From NCBI RefSeq assembly GCF_000376845.1, contig NZ_AQXY01000029.1, forward strand, positions 186,001 to 250,000: 64,000 nucleotides of DNA, given 5' to 3'. The stretch is from Thioalkalivibrio sp. ALE14 (lineage in GTDB: Bacteria > Pseudomonadota > Gammaproteobacteria > Ectothiorhodospirales > Ectothiorhodospiraceae). Numbering within the stretch: position 1 is the first letter of the stretch; each line of letters starts with the position of its first letter. The position numbers and the translations under genes were made by a program. The notes under the pieces were generated by a model, which worked only from the letters and a program-made list of their open reading frames with translations, was not told where the DNA came from and did not search any database. Of this stretch, positions 18,925 to 57,849 are shown piece by piece.

Positions 18925-19088
18925 CCCCACCTGCCCTGCCATCATCCCGGAAACCGCGCAGCGGTTATCCGGGATCTCCGACGCCGGAACAGACCAAGGC
19001 GGAGGAGAATTGTGGACGCGGAAGCTCCCGGCTCCGCGCTTCGCTGCAGCCGGGATGACGGGCCGGGCGAGCCTTCCGGAAGGGCTAG
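18925..19088. repeat. 'GTCATCCCGG' palindromic repeat, copy 1
   Basis: The segment from about 18940 to 19061 starts ATCATCCCGGAAACCGCGCA and ends GCAGCCGGGATGAC, forming a stem-loop of outer GTCATCCCGG arms. A related copy lies at about 30946-31048. The pattern is a common proteobacterial intergenic repeat. It fills most of the space between the small unknown gene and the MITE; no gene is present. Confidence 0.65.
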
Positions 19089-19367
19089 GGAAACACTGAT
19101 TAATGCACACGCTCGCGTTGGCACGCCAGGTTTTCCGAGACAAGGCGCGCCGTGCAGCGGGTAGTGGTTCTACCCGCAAGCGGTGCAACGCAGGATCGGG
19201 GAACCTGGGGTACCAACCCCACAACTTAATGAACGAAGGGGCTCGGCCGCTTTTGCGCGCGCACGGCGTTGCGGGTCCTTTGTGCAGAATGACTGCACGG
19301 CAGTCGCCGCGCCTTGTTCGCACGCAAAAGCGATCGAGCGCGAGCGCGTGCATGAATCAGTGTTTCC
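19089..19367. mobile_element. MITE with IS5-like ends, copy 1 (279 bp)
   Basis: A non-coding element bounded by near-perfect terminal inverted repeats (GGAAACACTGATTAATGCAC at the left; the inverse reading in GTGCATGAATCAGTGTTTCC at the right). It is flanked on both sides by CTAG (19085-19088 and 19368-19371), a 4-bp target duplication of the kind made by the IS5 group. Inside are hairpins such as GCGGGTAGTGGTTCTACCCGC-like arms. No transposase is encoded, so movement would need one in trans. A second copy, in opposite orientation and closely similar throughout, lies at 57245-57539. Its right CTAG supplies the PAP2 stop codon. Confidence 0.85.
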
Positions 19368-19898
19368 CTAGAACAGCCCCGCGACCCAGAGCACCGCACC
19401 CGCCATCGAGGCCCCGATCAGCGCGCCCATGGCGATGTCACTGGGATAGTGCAACGCCAGCACCAGCCGCGAGGCGGCTACCAGCGTCGCAAACGGCACC
19501 ACCAGCCAGGCCCAGACCGGGAGCCAGGCCACCAGGACTACGGTGAATCCCACCGCGTGCATGGTGTGGCCGGACGGGAAGCTGAACTCGTCCAGCGGGT
19601 CCACCGTGCGTGCGAACGGACGGTCGCGATGGCAGGGACGCCGCCGGCTGGTGCGCCGCTTCAGCCACTTGTACACCGGCAACGACAGCAGACCGACCAC
19701 CGCCATCTGCAGGCTGACCCATACCGCCTGCGGGCCGTGCAACAACGGCAGCGCCAGCATCAGGACATACCAGGCCACCCCGTCCCCGAGCCGGCTCACC
19801 GCCCCGAAGAAGCCGCTCACGGCACGGCGCCGATTGTAGTGGTTGAACTGCCGGCAGACCGCCAGCTCCAGCTCATCCATCCATTGCAGGACTCGCAT
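19368..19898 (-). CDS. PAP2-family membrane phosphatase
   Basis: An integral membrane phosphatase of the PAP2/PgpB superfamily, 176 residues. The three phosphatase motifs are visible: KRRTSRRRP (KX6RP), FSFPSGHTMHA and SRLVLALHYPSDI. The ATG at 19898 is preceded by AAGGAGGCGCGTG and overlaps the end of the glycosyltransferase gene by 26 nt. Family members dephosphorylate phosphatidate, phosphatidylglycerophosphate or undecaprenyl pyrophosphate. In this lipid cluster release of diacylglycerol is plausible, but this is an inference. Its TAG stop lies inside the CTAG target site of the adjoining MITE. Confidence 0.88.
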   Translation of the reverse strand: MRVLQWMDELELAVCRQFNHYNRRRAVSGFFGAVSRLGDGVAWYVLMLALPLLHGPQAVWVSLQMAVVGLLSLPVYKWLKRRTSRRRPCHRDRPFARTVDPLDEFSFPSGHTMHAVGFTVVLVAWLPVWAWLVVPFATLVAASRLVLALHYPSDIAMGALIGASMAGAVLWVAGLF

Positions 19899-47565: not shown

Positions 47566-48870
47566 ATGGTCCGCTGTTTTGCCATCCTGTTTGTCGCCCT
47601 GGTCCCACTGCTTTCGAGCCCATTTATCGCTCTGGCGCAGGACGACGGCGTGTCGGCAGGCGCCGTGGATGCAGCCGCCCCGATCGAAGCCGGCGGCGCC
47701 GAGATCCCGGTGGAACGCTATCGCGCCGACGGCGACGCCGTGCTGGTGTGGTTCCCCTCCGAACACGGCCTGCGTGACGGTCATCGGGAACAGGCCCTGG
47801 CGCTGCAGGCCGTCGGGGTAGAGGTCTGGCTGGCCGATCCGTTCACCGGCCACTTCCTGCCGGAGGCGGCGTCGAGCTTTGACGACATGCCCACCGCCAC
47901 GGTGGTGGACCTGATCGAGGCGGCGCACGCCGACACCGGCCGACCGGTGTTCGCGTTCGGGCATGACCGCGCCCTGCCCTGGCTGCTCACCGGGCTCTAT
48001 CAGTGGCAGCAGACCCACCCCGATGCGGATCACCTGGCCGGCCTCCTGATGGCCAGTCCCTTCCTGCATACCGGAGTGGATACCGAAGCCACCGAACTCC
48101 AGCCCATCGTCGGGCTGACCAACCTGCCGGTGTACATCCTGCAACCCGTCCAGTCGCCCCAGCACCAGCAGCTCGGCCGGGTACGCGCCGCGCTCGCCGA
48201 GGGCGGCAGCACCGTGGGCGCCCGCCTGCTCCCGGACATCCGCGACCGCTTCTTCTTCCGCCCGGACGCCACCGAGGGCGAACGGCAGGCAAGCGAGACC
48301 TTCCACCACGAAATCGTCTTCGGCATGGACCTGCTGTCACGCCTGCCGCGCCAGAGGATACCGGCCGTCGCCGATGCCGACGCGGACCTGGCCGTGCGCA
48401 CTCCCAGCGGCAGCGACGCGCAACTCAACACCCTGAACGAACCGGTGGCCGCCCCGGCGCTGGAGCGTCCCGACCTCGCCGGCGACTTCCACCGCCTCGA
48501 GGACTACCGGGGCGAGGTGGTGCTGATCAACTTCTGGGCCAGCTGGTGCCCGCCCTGCGTACACGAGATGCCCTCCATGCAACTTCTGGAAGACGAGCTG
48601 CGCGAGGAGGGCTTCCGCATCCTGGCGGTGAATCTCGGCGAGGACGAGGACACCATCCGCCGGTTCATCGAGGAGGAGGTCCAGACGGAGTTCACCATCC
48701 TCCTCGATCCGGAACAGGACTCGCTCGACGACTGGCGTGCCATGGCCTACCCGACCAGCTACGTCGTCGACCGCGAGGGCCGCCTGCGCTATTACCTGTT
48801 CGGCGCCATCGAGTGGACCGAACCCGGCGTGATCGACCAGATCCGCGAACTCCTTGGCGAGGACGCCTAG
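47566..48870 (+). CDS. Periplasmic two-domain protein: degenerate alpha/beta-hydrolase-like domain + TlpA-type thioredoxin domain
   Basis: A 434-residue exported protein with signal peptide MVRCFAILFVALVPLLSSPF. Residues about 35-290 resemble an alpha/beta-hydrolase core, but where GxSxG is expected there is AFGHDRAL, so the nucleophile appears lost. From about residue 295 there is a TlpA/ResA-like domain with redox motif WCPPC in NFWASWCPPCVHEMPSM. It should act in periplasmic disulfide reduction or cytochrome/sulfur redox. A paralogue with the same two-domain layout lies at 56273-57849 and is broken by a MITE. A periplasmic rhodanese follows 126 nt downstream. Confidence 0.83.
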   Translation: MVRCFAILFVALVPLLSSPFIALAQDDGVSAGAVDAAAPIEAGGAEIPVERYRADGDAVLVWFPSEHGLRDGHREQALALQAVGVEVWLADPFTGHFLPEAASSFDDMPTATVVDLIEAAHADTGRPVFAFGHDRALPWLLTGLYQWQQTHPDADHLAGLLMASPFLHTGVDTEATELQPIVGLTNLPVYILQPVQSPQHQQLGRVRAALAEGGSTVGARLLPDIRDRFFFRPDATEGERQASETFHHEIVFGMDLLSRLPRQRIPAVADADADLAVRTPSGSDAQLNTLNEPVAAPALERPDLAGDFHRLEDYRGEVVLINFWASWCPPCVHEMPSMQLLEDELREEGFRILAVNLGEDEDTIRRFIEEEVQTEFTILLDPEQDSLDDWRAMAYPTSYVVDREGRLRYYLFGAIEWTEPGVIDQIRELLGEDA

Positions 48871-49736: not shown

Positions 49737-50279
49737 TCAACCGTAGCGGCGTTCACCGTCCGGATCCGCTGGATCAGCGTCATCGGATTCACCGGCGCCA
49801 CTCTCGAGTTCGGGAGGCGCCCCCGGAGCCACACACTGGACATCGATGATCCGCGCGGCTTCATCAAAATGAACCGTCACGATATTCGCCGTCGCGATCG
49901 TCTCGGCCGCCAGACGATCGATGCCGAAATGCCGGGCGAGCTCCTCAGTCCCGACCGGGTCCGGGGCATGTCGCCGTTCCTTGTTGTGGAAGCGGAACCA
50001 GTTGTAACCGGCCCAACCAATAAAGATCACGCCCGCCGAGAAAATGGCGAGGCCGTACACCTGGATCGCACGCAACGTGCCCATGGGGTCATCCAGAATA
50101 TGGCGTTCGAACAACTCGACGCCCAGGGCCCACCCGATCAACGCGATCAGGGGCATAAACAAGTAGATCCAGATACCCCAACCCACGATACTGATCAACT
50201 GACCCACATAGCGCTTTCCACTCGGCTCCAGGTCCGAGCGGTCGATCACCCTGGGAACACGCGGCCGCAAGTGCTTCAT
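49737..50279 (-). CDS. pgaD: PgaD, poly-beta-1,6-GlcNAc synthase accessory protein
   Basis: A 180-residue protein with two membrane helices (IVGWGIWIYLFMPLIALIG and AIFSAGVIFIGWAGYNWF). The context at the end of pgaABC and the overall PgaD pattern (IDRSDLEP near the start) support the call. In E. coli, PgaC and PgaD together bind c-di-GMP to activate PNAG synthesis. The C-terminal tail of about 60 residues is acidic. It begins 4 nt after the pgaC stop. Confidence 0.85.
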   Translation of the reverse strand: MKHLRPRVPRVIDRSDLEPSGKRYVGQLISIVGWGIWIYLFMPLIALIGWALGVELFERHILDDPMGTLRAIQVYGLAIFSAGVIFIGWAGYNWFRFHNKERRHAPDPVGTEELARHFGIDRLAAETIATANIVTVHFDEAARIIDVQCVAPGAPPELESGAGESDDADPADPDGERRYG

Positions 50280-50283
50280 GGGT

Positions 50284-51546
50284 TCATTTTTCCGGCGGCC
50301 GCAACCCGCGATCCGGGCTGATCCATCGAGCACGCTCCCCGGAACGCTTGAGGAGGGCGCGCGGAACGGCCGCGACCGTGGTCGCCATCGACAATAGCCA
50401 GAACGCCAGCGGATACCAGATCACCCAGAAGTAATTGCGAAAGAATCGGCGGTCAGATTCGTAGCGGCGGTCGATCATCAAGCTGACAGAGAACTGTACT
50501 AGCGCCGTCAGCCCGAGAATCACGCCCGCCCATTGCGGCAACAACCCCGGCTGGATCCAGCCTTCCGGAAGCTCGATCACCAGGCCCAGGAAAGCCACCA
50601 GAATGATGGCAAACATCACATAGGCCCAGACGATACTGGCCACGTACTCGAGCGCTACACCCCACAATCGCCGCTTGGGCCAATGGAACAGGCTGGTACC
50701 GTGGCGAAGGATCGTTTCCACCCCGCCTTGAGCCCAGCGCAGGCGCTGGCGCCAGAGGCCCCTCAGGGTCTCCGGCATGTAAATGTATGAAAGTGCATTG
50801 GGCTCGTATCGGATGTCCCAGTGATCCAGCTGCAGGCGCCAGGAAATATCAATATCTTCGGTGACCATGTCACTGCTCCAGTACCCGACACGATCGAGCG
50901 CCGTACGGCGAAAGCCCGCGATCACGCCCGAGACAGTGAATATGCGCCCGTACACCCGCTGCGCGCGCTTGATCAGTCCGATGGTGGCCGAAAACTCCCC
51001 CACCTGGAGCTTGCCAAGCAGGCTGCTGCGATTAACGATCCGCGGATTCCCGGTAACGGCGCCCACTCGGGGACCCGAGGTCAGGTGGAACATCATCCAG
51101 GCGACGGCGTTCGGATGCAGCAGCGCGTCGCCATCGATGCAGATCAGGAAGTCGTGCTTCGCCGCCAGTGCTCCGGTCCGCAGGGCCACGGCCTTGCCCT
51201 GATTCGTGGCCAGATGCACCACGCGCAGGCGGGGATACTCGTGGGTCAGTTGTTCGAGGATCTCGGGGCTAGCGTCGCTACTGCCATCATTGACGGCAAT
51301 GATCTCGAAGTCGTGGTATTCGCTGGCATGGGCGTAATGGATGGTGTCGCGAATCACCTCGGCCTCGTTGAAGCAAGGGATGATGATGCTGCACGAAGCC
51401 GGATTGCCGCTGTCGATCGGATGATCCGGATCGGTCTTGTTACGACCTTCCCAATGGAGGTAATACCAGACGCCCCCGATGATCCAGACCCACGCCATGA
51501 TCAGCGGATAGAAGAAGGCAAAGTTCATCAGGGCGTTGAAGGTCAT
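50284..51546 (-). CDS. pgaC: Poly-beta-1,6-N-acetyl-D-glucosamine synthase PgaC
   Basis: A GT2-family processive glycosyltransferase of 420 residues that polymerises UDP-GlcNAc and extrudes the chain. The catalytic motifs AVNDGSSD, CIDGDALL, TEDIDISW and QRLRWAQGG are all present, with N- and C-terminal membrane helices. It is the third gene of pgaABCD. Activity is expected to depend on PgaD and c-di-GMP. Confidence 0.96.
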   Translation of the reverse strand: MTFNALMNFAFFYPLIMAWVWIIGGVWYYLHWEGRNKTDPDHPIDSGNPASCSIIIPCFNEAEVIRDTIHYAHASEYHDFEIIAVNDGSSDASPEILEQLTHEYPRLRVVHLATNQGKAVALRTGALAAKHDFLICIDGDALLHPNAVAWMMFHLTSGPRVGAVTGNPRIVNRSSLLGKLQVGEFSATIGLIKRAQRVYGRIFTVSGVIAGFRRTALDRVGYWSSDMVTEDIDISWRLQLDHWDIRYEPNALSYIYMPETLRGLWRQRLRWAQGGVETILRHGTSLFHWPKRRLWGVALEYVASIVWAYVMFAIILVAFLGLVIELPEGWIQPGLLPQWAGVILGLTALVQFSVSLMIDRRYESDRRFFRNYFWVIWYPLAFWLLSMATTVAAVPRALLKRSGERARWISPDRGLRPPEK

Positions 51547-51558
51547 GCCAGGAGGCTC

Positions 51559-53613
51559 CTATCGCGCATGAGGGAAGGCATTCAGCGACATGCCTTCGAA
51601 CGTTGGGCCAAACTCCGGCTGATTCCGAAGGAAATCGTCCGGGTAGTACCCGAAATTCAGCACCCCGCGCCGCACAAGCTGTTCCATCCAGTCGCGCAGG
51701 AGCGTCGCCTCCAGCCAGCGGCCTTCGCCGCGCCAGTCACGCGCCTGCAACTCGAACACTACGTCCTCGAAGCCCCCGACCTGCTCCTCCACAGCATCCG
51801 CGAGTCGGGCCAGCCAGACATCCGGCGGAAGCTCGGTCCCATCCAGCCAGGGCATGGCCATGATGGCCACCTCGTCGTACGCCTCAACGGCAGCGGGCAG
51901 CGCCTGGGCGAACCGGGCCTCGGCTTCCGGGTCGAGAATTACTCGCGCATACAGGTTGCGTGCGGTGCGAAAATCGAGCGACAGGTTGGTAAAGGTGCGC
52001 AGTCGGCCGATCACCTCGTCCCCGAAATCGATCAGGGCCTGGGTCTTCTCCTCCGGTCTCAGGATGCATTCCGCAAGCGGGCGGTCCGTTCCGGGCCAGC
52101 GCGCCGCGTCCTGACAGGCGGCCAGATCCTCGTCGGCGGCCAGGTAAGCGTCGTCGTGGATCAGCACGCCGGCAATACCGCTCGCCGCCATGCCGAGGTC
52201 CTCGTAGATATCCCCAACAATCTCCAGCGACCGGGGAAGGAACGGGCTCAGGCGGCGATAGTCACGATCGGCCGGCACAGGATCGCCTTCCGGGCCGGGC
52301 CGCTGAACTGACAGTTCGGCGTGGAGATCCTGATCGGGCAAATCGAAGGCGAGCAACGGCATCCAGGCATACACGCGCACCCCGGCTCGCGTCCGGAGCT
52401 GCCAGGCGACGCGATTGAACAAATCTGCGCGCATGGGCAGATGCCGGTTCGGGAAATACAGGGCATCCGCGTTGCCATCACCGTTCGGGTCGGCGAAGGC
52501 CTGCAGGTAGACCGTGCGGACCTGCATGCGCTGGATGCGGTCCAGGAGCACACCAAGATTGCGATTGGCCTGTTCCGGATCAGGATCGTAGACGTAATCC
52601 AGGTCGACATGGATCACCCGCTGGGGCTGCGGTGATGCGGCCCGCCTCGCGGACTCGGGGCGTACACTCTGTGCGATCTCGACCGGCCGTGGATCTTCGC
52701 TGATCAGCAGCCGATTGAAGCGCGATTGTTCGGGGTGGTTGACCGGCTCCGCACCCAGCGAGATCGACCAGAGCATTCCGGCCTCGCTCGCGAGCGCGTC
52801 CACCTCCTGACTGTGCGCGCCGTACGGCCAGACGATGGCCCGCGGTGCCACACCCACCATCGCCTCCAGCAAGGCACTGCTGGCCCTCATGTCATCGAGA
52901 ATTCGCTGGCGAAACGCGTCGTGATCCTCGTAACGGCCGTGTTCCGGGTCATAACGCCGCGTAATGGCTGCTGGCTGCTCGTTACCCTGCGGATTGGCCA
53001 GGATTCCGCGATGCAGATCGTGACTGTGGCTGGCGAATTCCACCAGTCCCGATGCCTGCATCTCGCGCAGCTCGGACAGCGCCAAAAACCCCTCGGCCCC
53101 GAGCGGTGCCTCGTTGTACTGGACGGTCCCTGGCGGGGCTTGGTCCGCAGCCACCCCGGGACCCGAGCCATCGGCGAAGGTCTCGGGATTGTAGGTCACA
53201 TCCTCGCCGGCCCAGACCGTCTCCAGCCAGCCGGTCTGCAGCGCGACCAGCGCGGGGTATTCATAGGCCTGCAACAACGGGAACACGTGGCTGTAAACAC
53301 TGGCCAGGCCGTCGTCGAAGGTCAGCAGAACGGCATTGGCCGGCAGTGGTTCCCGCCCCTCGCGGGCATCCAGAATCTGCTGCAACGAAACCGGCTGCCA
53401 GCCATGCCGCTGCATCCAGTCAAACCATTCCACCAGACGCCGCGTGCTGACGGCGTACGGATCCGGGTCCCTTCCCGGAACCACGTCGTCGCGCACATCG
53501 TGATAGGACAGCGCCAGGAAGTGCCCCTCCGGGATGGTGAAGGCCTCCTGCGCATGCACCGGGCCATGCCCTATACCCGCAAGCATCAGCAGGATCATGA
53601 AAAGCCGTTGCAT
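51559..53613 (-). CDS. pgaB: PNAG N-deacetylase PgaB
   Basis: Partially deacetylates PNAG for export and cleaves the deacetylated polymer. It has 684 residues: a signal peptide (MQRLFMILLMLAGIGHG), an N-terminal polysaccharide deacetylase domain with ALSYHDVRDD and LLTFDDGLASVYSHV, then a C-terminal GH153-like domain from about residue 325 (VIHVDLDYVYDPDPEQ; IHDDAYLA). Unlike E. coli PgaB, no lipobox cysteine is visible, so it may be soluble in the periplasm. Its ATG overlaps the pgaA stop (TGATG). Confidence 0.95.
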   Translation of the reverse strand: MQRLFMILLMLAGIGHGPVHAQEAFTIPEGHFLALSYHDVRDDVVPGRDPDPYAVSTRRLVEWFDWMQRHGWQPVSLQQILDAREGREPLPANAVLLTFDDGLASVYSHVFPLLQAYEYPALVALQTGWLETVWAGEDVTYNPETFADGSGPGVAADQAPPGTVQYNEAPLGAEGFLALSELREMQASGLVEFASHSHDLHRGILANPQGNEQPAAITRRYDPEHGRYEDHDAFRQRILDDMRASSALLEAMVGVAPRAIVWPYGAHSQEVDALASEAGMLWSISLGAEPVNHPEQSRFNRLLISEDPRPVEIAQSVRPESARRAASPQPQRVIHVDLDYVYDPDPEQANRNLGVLLDRIQRMQVRTVYLQAFADPNGDGNADALYFPNRHLPMRADLFNRVAWQLRTRAGVRVYAWMPLLAFDLPDQDLHAELSVQRPGPEGDPVPADRDYRRLSPFLPRSLEIVGDIYEDLGMAASGIAGVLIHDDAYLAADEDLAACQDAARWPGTDRPLAECILRPEEKTQALIDFGDEVIGRLRTFTNLSLDFRTARNLYARVILDPEAEARFAQALPAAVEAYDEVAIMAMPWLDGTELPPDVWLARLADAVEEQVGGFEDVVFELQARDWRGEGRWLEATLLRDWMEQLVRRGVLNFGYYPDDFLRNQPEFGPTFEGMSLNAFPHAR

Positions 53614-56090
53614 CAGAAGGTCCCTCGCAGGCGCACAAGCCCGAAGAGCCGGTCTTCCCGGTTGCCGTCGTACGTCGTGGAACCCCAGCCCACGCCATAA
53701 TCGATGGACCAGCGACGATCCAGGTCCCAGCGATGCTCGTAGCGAAGCGCCACGGTCGGATCATTGCCGAAGCCAGACTGGTAACCGACACCGACGGCCG
53801 CGTGAAAATGTTGAGTAAAGGCCCGGTCATAGTCGCGCCAGGTAATCCAGTCGTGGTCCACCCGAACCGAGGAGCTGGCCGACCGCTCCGGATTGAAATA
53901 GGGTCCGCCCGGCTGGCTGTTCTGCTGGAAAAAGAGATCGGCGCCCACATCGGTCGCGTGGTGGGCTCTGGCATACACCCGCCGTGTCACGCCCCCGCCC
54001 AACGAGCTTCGGCGATTGCCGTCATCAATCGACAGCAGACCCACATTGGCATAGGCCGAAAGGGATTCGTTGGCCCGCCAGTCCACGGAAGCCGAGGCAG
54101 ACCAGCCTTCGAGACCCGCATCGATTGCCCTCAGGGGCGTTTGCATCGAGTAACTGTCCGCTTCAATCCCGATCCGCCAGTGGTCCCCGAGCCACTGCGA
54201 CCACCCCGCCGCGATGCCGGGGTTGGCATCGCCCTTGAGATCGCGGTCTAACCGCACCCAGGCCTGTTTGCGACGGGCGTCCCACTCGATTCCCGCACCA
54301 ATGCGGTCATAGCGACCTTCTGCATCGCCGAAAGTCGCCGTGGTATAGCGGTGTTCCAGAAAGGCCCGAAGTGGATGATCGGACCAGGGCGAATTCAGTC
54401 GTGTACGCCATTCCCGGTCGCGATCACCGCTGACCAGTCCGTCGCCGCCCGATGTGCGGCCAAAAATCACCTCGCTCTCGATGGATGGGCGACCGCGGTC
54501 CTCCAGCTCTTCGGACAGGCGCTGAACATCCGGCGACCGGGGGAAGTCGGACCGCAGGGAATCGACCTCCTGCGCCCAGATATCGTGCTCGCCGAGGTCG
54601 CGCGCGTTCTCCGCCCGATTGAGCCGCGTATCCCGGGCATCGGGTGCCCAGCGCTCGGCAATGTCAGTAATGTCCCGCGAGCGCACCGGCCAGCCGCGCC
54701 AGCGGGCCATGCGGGCCTGGGTGTTACGCAGCCCGGCGTGAGCCGGCGCCTGGCGGACCAGTTCCCCACTGCGCTCCCAGGCCAGTGCGAGATCCTGTCG
54801 ATAGGCCGCGTCGTACACCCGAAGCTGGTCGACATCGACACGTTCCCAGTTGGGGATCGGGTCGCGATCCGGGTCGATGCTCAGCCAGACCGGCGTGTGG
54901 TGATGGGCACGTTCAAGTTGGTCCGCCGCTGCGGAATAATCCTCCAGCGCGAGGTGTGTGTAATAGAGATCCAGCAGCAACGAGACGTCCGGAGGTTCGT
55001 TCTCGGAAACCAGGGACTCGTACAGCGGGAGAGCCTTTTCGGGCTGTTCTTCAGACAGGTAGGCATCTGCCGCCGCCCGGCGCACATAGGCGGGGGCGAT
55101 CAGGTCGTCCGGAAGTGCCTCGAATGACCCAATCGTCTCCGGCATTCGCTCGAGTTCACGCAACAGCGCGATGCGGTCGAAGCGAACCCGCAAATGTTGT
55201 GGGTGCGCCTCCGGAATACGCGAAAGAAACTCGTCTGCCCTCACCAGTGCCCGATTCAGTGCCCGGTTTCTCTCTTCATGGCGGCCCTCGGCCTCCATCC
55301 GAGAGCGCACATCCAGCGCCTGCCGGATGTCCGACGCAATGGCATCTGCCTCGGCCTGATAGCGAACGTCGTCCTCGAACAGGTCCGGGCGTTCCTGTAT
55401 CGCGGCCCACGCCCGGTGGCTGGCGCCAAGCGTCCACAGGGCCAGGATCTGCTCCTGGAATGCCAGGGGATGCTGGGGATCGCGGGCACGCGCGCGATTG
55501 GCCATCGCCAGGGCCTGCCGCGGAACACCCGACTGGCGCAAGCCATACGCCATCAGCGCCAACTCCTGAGCGGATTCGGGCAAGGGGGCGACTTCTGCGA
55601 GGGCCTGACGCGCCGTTTCTGCGTCACCGGCCTCGGCACTGGCGACGGCGAACAGAATTTCCGCGGAGGTACCCAGCCGCTTCCTGGATTGGCGCAGGAC
55701 ATCCGCCGCTGCCGCGAACTTGCCTTCGTCACGCATGGCAAAGGCCCAGCTCATGTGGGCATAGTCCGGAACGGATTCGGGATCGAACCCCTGGGTTCGA
55801 GAGGCGATCGCCGCGTTGTCTCCAGCCAGACGCAATACAACGATCAGGTCCGCTTGCAGGCGGGGCGCGCCGGGGAAACGGGCATCCAGCTCAAGCAGAC
55901 GATCAGCAGCCTCGGTCACCCGCCCCTGCTGGGCAAGCTCGACCGCCTGTTCTCGCTGATGGTCCAGAGCAGAAGCGTACCCAGGAAGCGGCAAGGCCCA
56001 TGGCAGCACGAGGAGACACGCGAATTGCACCCACCGTCCAATGGAGCGGTGAGGCAGGTGTGCCCGACCATACGCCACGTCCCTGTCCAT
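53613..56090 (-). CDS. pgaA: PNAG outer-membrane export porin PgaA
   Basis: An 825-residue exported protein. After the signal region (VQFACLLVLPWALPLPGYAS) comes a long TPR-rich superhelical domain (about residues 45-500), which binds PgaB or the polymer. The C-terminal 300 residues form the 16-strand beta-barrel and end in the typical LRGTF outer-membrane tail (C-terminal Phe). It is the first gene of pgaABCD; the 180-nt upstream gap should contain its promoter, but I saw no convincing -35/-10 pair. Confidence 0.95.
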   Translation of the reverse strand: MDRDVAYGRAHLPHRSIGRWVQFACLLVLPWALPLPGYASALDHQREQAVELAQQGRVTEAADRLLELDARFPGAPRLQADLIVVLRLAGDNAAIASRTQGFDPESVPDYAHMSWAFAMRDEGKFAAAADVLRQSRKRLGTSAEILFAVASAEAGDAETARQALAEVAPLPESAQELALMAYGLRQSGVPRQALAMANRARARDPQHPLAFQEQILALWTLGASHRAWAAIQERPDLFEDDVRYQAEADAIASDIRQALDVRSRMEAEGRHEERNRALNRALVRADEFLSRIPEAHPQHLRVRFDRIALLRELERMPETIGSFEALPDDLIAPAYVRRAAADAYLSEEQPEKALPLYESLVSENEPPDVSLLLDLYYTHLALEDYSAAADQLERAHHHTPVWLSIDPDRDPIPNWERVDVDQLRVYDAAYRQDLALAWERSGELVRQAPAHAGLRNTQARMARWRGWPVRSRDITDIAERWAPDARDTRLNRAENARDLGEHDIWAQEVDSLRSDFPRSPDVQRLSEELEDRGRPSIESEVIFGRTSGGDGLVSGDRDREWRTRLNSPWSDHPLRAFLEHRYTTATFGDAEGRYDRIGAGIEWDARRKQAWVRLDRDLKGDANPGIAAGWSQWLGDHWRIGIEADSYSMQTPLRAIDAGLEGWSASASVDWRANESLSAYANVGLLSIDDGNRRSSLGGGVTRRVYARAHHATDVGADLFFQQNSQPGGPYFNPERSASSSVRVDHDWITWRDYDRAFTQHFHAAVGVGYQSGFGNDPTVALRYEHRWDLDRRWSIDYGVGWGSTTYDGNREDRLFGLVRLRGTF

Positions 56091-56272: not shown

Positions 56273-57849
56273 CTATTCGGGCTCCGCCATCAGGGCGCGG
56301 ACCGTGGCGATAACGTCGGGATCATCCCATTCGATGGCGCTGTTGACCGAATAGCGCACGCGGCCGTCGCGGCCGAGGATGAACGAGCTGGGGAAGGCAA
56401 ACACGCGCCAGTCAGCGGCGACCCGCCCGTCGAAATCCATCAGGACCGGGAAGTCCACCTGCACCTCGCCCATGAAGGCGGTGATGTGCTCGGCGCTCTC
56501 CTGGTAGTTGACCGATACGATCGCGAAGCTATCGCCCAGGGTCTCGGCCATGCGGTTCATCGACGGGATCTCGTGCACGCAGGGCGGGCACCAGCTGGCC
56601 CAGAAGTTCAGCAGGACCACCTGCCCTTCGTAATCGGACAGCGACTGCTCATCGCCTAGGTGATCGGTGAGCGTGAAATCGTCGACCGGTGGCGGGTGAT
56701 CGCGCTCGACCAGTCCCCGGCCGGCCTCGACCTCGCGTGCGATTTCCGGCATCGGCGCCGCCGCCAGCGGTCGCGGGACGCTGGCCAGCAGCCGGCCCGC
56801 CTGCAGCAACTGCACGGGCAGACGCGCGGCCGCGGCGGCCTCTTCCGGTTCGGGTTCGGAACGGCGCAGGCAGTAGAAATCGCGCACCCCCGGGACCATC
56901 TGCACGAACACCGCGCTGCCGCCACGGCGCAGGTCGGCCAGGATCTCGTCGAGGTGCCAGCGATAGACGCCCTGGGTCGGCTGCAACAGGAATACGGGCA
57001 GGCTGGTGGCCCGCACGACGTCCACGAACTCCGCGGGCGCACCGGCCACCGGGGTATCGACCATCAGGTTGGGGAAGGCCAGTGCCGCACCGAGCACATA
57101 GCCCGATTCGGGTCCGTCTTCCTGCCACTGGCGCAGGCCACGCAGGGCCGTGATGGCCGGGCGGCCGGAGGCCACCAGCATCACGTCCTTGCCCGTCTGC
57201 GCATGCGCCGCTCGCAGCAAAGCGGCCACGCTGACCCCGTCTAGGGAAACACTGATCAATGTACACGCTCGCGCTCGAGTCGCTTTTGCGTGCGAACAAG
57301 GCGCGGTGACTGCCGTGCAGTCATTCTGCACAAGGGAGCCGCAACGCCGTGCGCGCGCCCGTTTTTGATAACAACGGGCGGCCGAGCCCCTGCGTTCAAT
57401 CAATTGTGGGGTTGGCACCCCAGGTTCCCCGATCCGGCGTTGCGCCGCTTGTGGGTAGAACCACTACCCGCTGCGCGACGCGCCTTGTCTCGGAAAACCT
57501 GGGGTGCCAACGCGAGTGTGTACATTGATCAGTGTTTCCCTAGGCTGCGCATGCTCTCGTTGGTGCGGGGGAGGAAATGGGCATGCAGCAGGTCGATTTG
57601 CCAGACCTCGATGCCCATCGCGGCCAGCTCGCGGCCAAACACCGCATGATTGGCGTGTACGCCCGCCTGTGGCAGCAGCCAGAGGAAGATGCGGTCGCCG
57701 GCAGCCGGGTAAACGGTCACATCCAGCTCCACGCCGGCGGGGTCGGTCACGGTGACTGTGTGCGGCTCCAGCGTGTCGGCCGGCACCGGCGTAGACAGAA
57801 CGAACAGGCACAGGAGCAGGCAAAGACGCGGCAGAACGCTCATCGACAC
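56273..57849 (-). pseudogene. TlpA-type two-domain periplasmic protein, interrupted by a MITE
   Basis: A paralogue of the intact gene at 47566-48870. The 5' part (57849 to 57541) encodes a signal peptide (LPRLCLLLCLFVLSTPVPA) and the start of the degenerate hydrolase domain. It reads MRSL and then into the MITE, stopping after GKH. The 3' part (57241 down to 56273) resumes with DGVSVAALLRAAH and continues through the TlpA domain (NFWASWCPPCVHEIPSM). Removing 299 bp (element plus one CTAG) joins the halves in frame, giving about 425 residues against 434 for the paralogue. The nucleophile elbow position reads VASGRPA. The TlpA half could still be translated only from an internal start, without a signal peptide. 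Confidence 0.9.
57245..57539. mobile_element. MITE with IS5-like ends, copy 2 (295 bp)
   Basis: This is the inverse-orientation relative of the element at 19089-19367. The ends read GGAAACACTGATCAATGTAC and GTACATTGATCAGTGTTTCC (perfect inverses) and are flanked by CTAG at 57241-57244 and 57540-57543. Most of the interior is shared with copy 1 (for example GACTGCCGTGCAGTCATTCT and GCGCCTTGTCTCGGAAAACC), but copy 2 has a short extra hairpin segment around CCCGTTTTTGATAACAACGGG. There is no coding capacity. It sits inside the TlpA-fusion gene. Confidence 0.9.

Follow-up and report, generated by a model that had tools for sequence, protein, structure and literature searches.

What has split a redoxin gene of a Thioalkalivibrio strain, a sulfur bacterium of soda lakes, into two halves, and has the gene lost its function? 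The window analysed here, a stretch of 64,000 nucleotides (G000:C29:186001-250000), belongs to a 3.02-Mb Thioalkalivibrio genome in 31 contigs. The gene lies on its minus strand. The 5' half (57544-57849; 102 codons with a GTG start at 57849) encodes a signal peptide, recognised by eye, and an N-terminal region, and the 3' half (56273-57241; 322 codons at 57241-56276 plus a stop) encodes an AhpC-TSA/Redoxin (TlpA/ResA-like) domain with the motif WCPPC. Both halves are open frames. They are separated by a 295-bp MITE with class A arms (57245-57539, plus strand), which is bounded by CTAG at both ends, at 57241-57244, adjoining the element, and at 57540-57543, as the initial annotation had described. 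Aligned to the orthologue L035, the 5' half covers residues 11-112 (74.5% identity) and the 3' half residues 114-435 (91%), with a single leucine between them, the codon of which spans the target site. This alignment bears out the proposal that the two halves follow each other directly within a single protein. The total insert amounts to 299 bp, which is not a multiple of three, and that a precise 299-bp excision would restore the frame is arithmetic on the sequence. The 5' frame continues into the element with Leu-Gly-Lys-His and then stops (ORF 57529-57849); another frame (ORF 56273-57418) opens with GTG within the element and runs through the 3' half. Loss of function is what we infer rather than observe, because the 3' part could still be produced, without a signal peptide, from this internal GTG.

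The product of the gene is probably a secreted, thioredoxin-like, two-part redoxin of the TlpA/ResA-like type. The 3' half matches PF00578 (3.4e-23) and PF08534 (5.4e-20) in Pfam, the NCBIfam models for ResA, DsbE and TlpA match the redoxin part only below their cut-offs, and for the N-terminal 102 residues Pfam gives no match. An intact paralogue of 434 aa with the same domain order (PF00578, 8.5e-24) is located at 47566-48870 on the plus strand. The two halves match it in order along most of its length, with 34.9% identity over 63 aa for the 5' half (residues 38-100 to 43-105) and 36.4% over 324 columns for the 3' half (4-320 to 112-432). The earlier statement that the rejoined product (about 425 residues) has the domain order and nearly the length of the 434-residue paralogue thus holds, with the halves aligned separately. 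Because the two paralogues are only about 36% identical the pair is judged to be old, and therefore the intact paralogue need not replace the broken gene.

The neighbourhood of the gene is partly conserved. Four of its seven best-matching relatives (L031, L033, L035 and L036) have the paralogue first, followed by the rhodanese gene, the gene itself and the Nudix gene. A Nudix gene stands at one side in six of the seven (L031-L036), and paralogue and rhodanese gene stand together at the other side in those four, within the stretches examined. No rhodanese match was found in the stretch examined of L034; in L037 the rhodanese gene lies on the opposite side, and the stretch examined contains neither a paralogue nor a Nudix match. 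In the window a pgaABCD operon (49737-56090) separates the rhodanese gene from the broken one, with PgaA, PgaB, PgaC and PgaD all above the NCBIfam cut-offs. T. versutus AL 2 (L032/L105) likewise carries pgaABCD between the rhodanese gene and the gene, and no Pga protein was found in the examined stretches of six relatives (L031, L033-L037).

The gene's closest relatives are found in strains of Thioalkalivibrio, a genus of Ectothiorhodospiraceae. A search for related loci retained 79, the seven best Thioalkalivibrio loci being L031-L037, and all seven read AGC CTG GA(C/T) GG without a break at the insertion site. A DNA search of 30 genomes of the genus returned, besides the gene itself, eight orthologues covering most of the query (L139-L146), seven of which are identical to L031-L037. 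In all eight the site is uninterrupted, the frame is open through it and a single copy of the 4-bp target is present, at the place now occupied by the CTAG at 57540-57543. This copy reads CTGG on the gene strand, i.e. CCAG where the window has CTAG in its own orientation, which is one transition and leaves the Leu of the gene unchanged. The site is likewise unbroken, but with another sequence, in a ninth relative that stands further off (L038, a MAG, 62%). The initial annotation had expected an empty CTAG site with an uninterrupted gene in related strains; the uninterrupted gene is there in all eight close orthologues, but the site reads CTGG and not CTAG. Because the eight close orthologues are uninterrupted, the insertion is, by this comparison, specific to the present lineage among the nine genomes. 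As all eight have CTGG, CTAG is not what is usually present at this site. Either a CTAG target would have preceded the insertion, or the flank would have changed together with it. In the 64-kb window CTAG is rare, with 23 occurrences against a mean of 80 in shuffles.

The inserted element has inverted arms of 33 nt including the CTAG (57241-57273 and 57511-57543), which are 97% complementary. The 22-nt class A arm, allowing up to 3 mismatches, occurs at 80 sites in the strain's genome (40 + 40), and a 21-nt class B arm, allowing up to 2 mismatches, occurs 8 + 8 times; the reversed-pattern controls gave 0 sites for either class. At least 44 copies are present in this genome, comprising 41 long matches, for which 40 of the 82 first-look candidates were scored, and 3 more in further stretches examined. 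Element matches were found in 16 of the 30 genomes of the genus, and an order-wide search gave the same number of positives, 16, all within the genus, and none among 17 genomes of four other genera. The search of the genus covered at most 25 candidates per genome and the order-wide search at most 16, and copy numbers, for this and for the other genomes, are therefore lower bounds. Our alignment comprises 73 copies (44 from this genome and 29 from others, two duplicates having been dropped from 75), of which 67 carry two class A arms, 6 two class B arms and none a mixed pair. The copies range from 262 to 311 bp and cluster near 265, 280, 295 and 310 bp, length classes that are produced by three places with an alternating long and short loop; one short loop form is CCCC-TTC-GGGG. 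A second copy in the window (279 bp, 19089-19367, minus strand; C29:205089-205367) is flanked by CTAG at 19085-19088 and 19368-19371. With its short length, many copies, terminal inverted repeats and IS-like ends the element is, by these features, a bacterial MITE family; among the papers listed for Thioalkalivibrio with MITEs, transposable elements and IS5, none has a title or abstract start that describes this family.

The element was not taken as a gene of its own. The nonsynonymous share in its frame +0 is 0.72 against 0.68 expected, and none of the codon positions shows an excess of change (240, 201, 203), so no coding signature is seen, despite a frame more open than in shuffled copies (longest open stretch: median 93 codons vs 47) and changes to or from stops that are rarer than expected (0.014 vs 0.039). 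In 34 of the 73 copies one frame is open from end to end. Splitting a gene seems to be the exception for this family, because a coding-score survey, crude in that its threshold of 0.25 was set by eye, placed only 9 of the 44 copies of this genome (3 of them in frame, including the redoxin copy) and 7 of the 29 copies elsewhere (3 in frame) between coding sequence on the same strand. Coding sequence on one side only was scored for 21 of the 44 and 7 of the 29, and on neither side for 14 and 15, respectively.

The flanks of the family are less uniform than those in the redoxin gene. Identical 4-bp flanks were found in 31 of the 73 copies (23 CTAG, 5 TTAA) and unequal ones in 42; in 29 of these 42 the inner two bases are kept and the outer ones differ, and 52 of all 73 copies read AG directly before and CT directly after the element. 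The unequal pairs could possibly result from simple mutation of CTAG, from VSP-like repair or from carriage of donor bases, and the element may carry 2 bp of donor flank. Among the 73 copies a left CCAG is combined with a right CTAG in 7, a left CTAG with a right CTGG in 0, and CCAG is the left flank in 10, CTGG the right flank in 1. Among the loci examined, pairings of other copies with an empty site were mostly not clean. One further empty/filled pair is plausible from the alignment of L127 with L200, the empty site reading CTGG and the filled one being flanked by CTAG at the left and CTAT at the right. Three sites are shared between genomes among the copies examined. At two of them (L006/L125 and L128/L130) the loop lengths are the same. 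At the third (L135/L169; flanks 91% identical, TTAA on both sides) both copies have the same arms, including a shared mismatch, and two loop modules differ in length (296 vs 266 bp), which suggests that the core was altered where it stands, through conversion, recombination or slippage. The L006/L125 insertion, common to two genomes, adjoins a tRNA-Arg(CCT) gene (1420-1496 of both loci). Two end-to-end arrangements were also seen: at L025 (G000:C31:320457-321035) two MITEs, one of class B and the other of class A, have one CTAG between them, and at L210 (G005) the IS described below shares one CTAG with a 310-bp stretch that bears class B arms.

A candidate for the enzyme that moves the element is encoded in the same genome. 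For the helper search, 20 stretches with lone arm matches were considered; the ORF in C30:1-2201 was recognised by eye as a transposase and then confirmed by profiles, and among the 20 stretches the family-library search covered this ORF only. It belongs to an IS that occupies G000:C30:1-1200, and its transposase frame, open over 323 codons, matches NF033581 (IS5 family transposase, NCBIfam) with 322.8 bits against a cut-off of 140 and also PF01609 and PF05598. Base 1 of the contig is also base 1 of the IS, and the outer flank is therefore off the contig. Near-full-length homologues of the transposase were found in 5 of the 30 genomes (8 copies, 89-100% identity), and in 8 of 30 if weaker or partial matches are included. 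In all eight IS copies the end that lies downstream of the transposase gene has 16-17 of its first 17 bases in common with the class A arm. The upstream end agrees with the class B arm in 17/17 (G000) down to 12/17 (G015), being closer to class B in four of the eight copies, closer to class A in one and tied in three. The likeness between MITE and IS ends after about 17 bases, and the IS was not listed by the MITE search. In the relatives, five IS copies have identical 4-bp flanks (e.g. CTAG, GTAG, TAAG, TTAA) and two have unequal ones. Taken by its ends, this IS5-family element is the likely helper of the MITE. Another IS5 relative may serve instead, or the helper may since have been lost, because near-full-length copies of the transposase were found in only 5 of the 30 genomes and the MITE in 16.

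The split gene, the uninterrupted gene in eight relatives, the repeat family and the matching IS5 ends in the same genome are all seen directly. On these grounds we hold it very probable that a MITE with IS5-type ends inserted at a CTAG in the redoxin gene and inactivated it in this Thioalkalivibrio lineage. The CTAG target probably arose first, from the relatives' CTGG by a synonymous Leu CTG to CTA change; alternatively, the change would have been concurrent with the insertion. A non-autonomous MITE would then have inserted at the 4-bp CTAG within the gene, moved in trans by the IS5 transposase or that of a close relative, presumably late in the history of the lineage, and a working redoxin would no longer be made. 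In the simplest view the arms would be kept matched by template-switch correction and/or by selection for ends that the transposase recognises, with the core further exchanged or altered among the copies.

The strongest alternative takes the element itself as a structured-RNA gene or another functional RNA that spreads with IS5-type ends, its stems and exchangeable loops being kept by selection on the RNA and the knock-out being a side effect. We regard it as distinctly unlikely. In its favour, the element folds far below its shuffles (-191.7 kcal/mol vs -114.8, sd 5.7), and the long and short loop forms, CCCC-TTC-GGGG among them, would suit an RNA. The two strands, however, fold about equally well (-191.7 kcal/mol with z -13.6, and -188.3 kcal/mol with z -14.0), and as the plus strand is the better one in 31 of the 73 copies, folding energy does not assign a strand to a putative RNA. 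In the consensus of the 73 copies 84 pairs are formed, at 26 of which both sides have changed in some copy. Mapped on one tree, which is an approximation since the copies recombine, two-sided change at the 28 arm pairs falls on 56 branches against 12.4 under the null (sd 3.1, largest 21 of 300); for the 56 inner pairs the figure is 17 branches, where the null gives 4.9 (sd 2.0, largest 10 of 300). With the partner slid, the numbers drop to 2-7 and 2-8 branches, respectively. The co-change of the inner helices speaks for the RNA. That of the arms is also expected from template switching between them, which, as far as the available part of the source goes, maintains hairpin stems by shifting both arms together to another Watson-Crick pair (PMC8794818); the alternative source of the arm co-change would be selection acting on a folded strand. 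A claim of functional RNA by per-pair covariation failed against the strict null, only the pooled event test being significant: when a G test was applied to each pair under a simulated-tree null, no pair reached E < 0.05, the best having E 0.07. One-sided arm changes lead to G.T more often than to A.C (42 vs 18, P 0.003; if one column pair is left out, 32 vs 16 with P 0.03), as an RNA would favour, but these P values assume independent events, which changes in the copies of one family are not. Finally, a search of Rfam returned three matches, all to miRNA and all far below the gathering threshold, so that no known RNA family can be named. A broader version, which we put forward only tentatively and think rather improbable, would see in the family a palindromic cassette mobilised by IS5 and selected as a folded single strand, be it RNA or DNA, with concerted arms and stems, exchangeable loops, a core altered at fixed places in the genome and two arm classes, each of which goes back on its own to a different end of a single IS.

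The MITE knock-out remains our preferred reading, and its age bears on a further alternative. The initial annotation had called the event recent and clean. The insertion is later than the split from relatives whose 3' half is 77.5-89.0% identical at the DNA level (7 compared), the broken gene contains neither a second stop nor a frameshift, and there are signs of constraint; against a very recent origin, the best match to the element among its other copies in the same genome is only 94% identical. The constraint was assessed by unique changes in six of the nine sequences (the interrupted gene and L031-L035; the distant L036, L037 and L146 were left out). The interrupted gene has 10 nonsynonymous and 13 synonymous unique changes (4:5 and 6:8 in its halves), the other five sequences, both halves summed, 10:24, 10:19, 9:13, 28:36 and 11:12. 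With about 71% nonsynonymous changes expected in the absence of constraint, 10 or fewer among 23 have a probability of P = 0.005 at kappa 2 (0.002 at kappa 1, 0.010 at kappa 4). In this rough test with few changes, the result suggests that the gene's branch was mostly under constraint, and because of this the insertion is probably late. No signal of decay was found, as the ratio of 10:13 falls within the range of the intact orthologues (10:24 to 11:12). One unique change, Asp to His, lies near the site in a motif otherwise common to the relatives.

The same data could be read in favour of an old insertion, after which the halves were selected as two separate proteins, the 3' one starting inside the element. 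Both halves are indeed open with no further lesion, the ORF at 56273-57418 starts at a GTG inside the element, and the changes on the gene's own branch look constrained. Such a 3' product would, however, have no signal peptide, the insert is present in none of the eight relatives and the constraint is accounted for by the time before the insertion, so that we consider a split gene of this kind very improbable. Although a 31-contig draft with dozens of element copies might invite an assembly artefact, we can hardly give credence to a misjoin of identical repeats, because the site lies deep within a 348-kb contig, its flanks match eight relatives in order and no other copy closer than 94% was found in the genome.

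The MITE insertion, probably a late one, is a clear example of gene loss that can be set against eight empty sites; in this strain it breaks one of two redoxin fusions that lie close together in several relatives. Knock-outs by such repeats are known, and a loss of this type is ordinary. Of greater interest is the element family, whose two arm classes, concerted arms and loop modules merit the attention of specialists. Its many copies in each of many genomes of one genus would make it possible to study how the palindrome is kept up, how loops are exchanged and how the family depends on an IS5 helper. Among known systems, RUP, which is linked to IS630, is by description set apart from the Thioalkalivibrio element in IS family, length and target, and BOX is built of repeated box modules. 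The Thioalkalivibrio element is by description also unlike BOX in having three alternative loop forms within one palindrome and IS5-type ends. In what the available part of PMC3049150 describes, both repeats split genes in Streptococcus pneumoniae, some of which are intact elsewhere; RUP is like the present element in being small, with IS-like ends and many copies, and in splitting genes that are intact in other strains, and BOX, which is judged parasitic there, in being modular, with extensive secondary structure and the ability to split genes. Bacterial MITEs such as NEMIS/Correia, ERIC, YPAL, Nezha and TIMEs are, in the portions of PMC3733652 and PMC4133298 at hand, up to about 300 bp long, with inverted ends like those of an autonomous element and no coding signature; the length and the ends are the same here, and no coding signature is seen here either, though one frame is unusually open. 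In contrast to MITEs in general, the present family has two arm classes, each with its best match at a different end of a single IS in this genome, and is restricted to one genus among the genomes searched; it is also distinct from the short REPs of Thioalkalivibrio described in that portion of PMC3733652. With IS5-family IS (NF033581) the element shares the ends and the 4-bp flanks of CTAG/TTAA type seen in the IS copies of this genus, but it is without a transposase gene. The maintenance of stems by template switching, in the part of PMC8794818 considered, resembles the co-change of the arms seen here, and is a mutation mechanism and not an element family.
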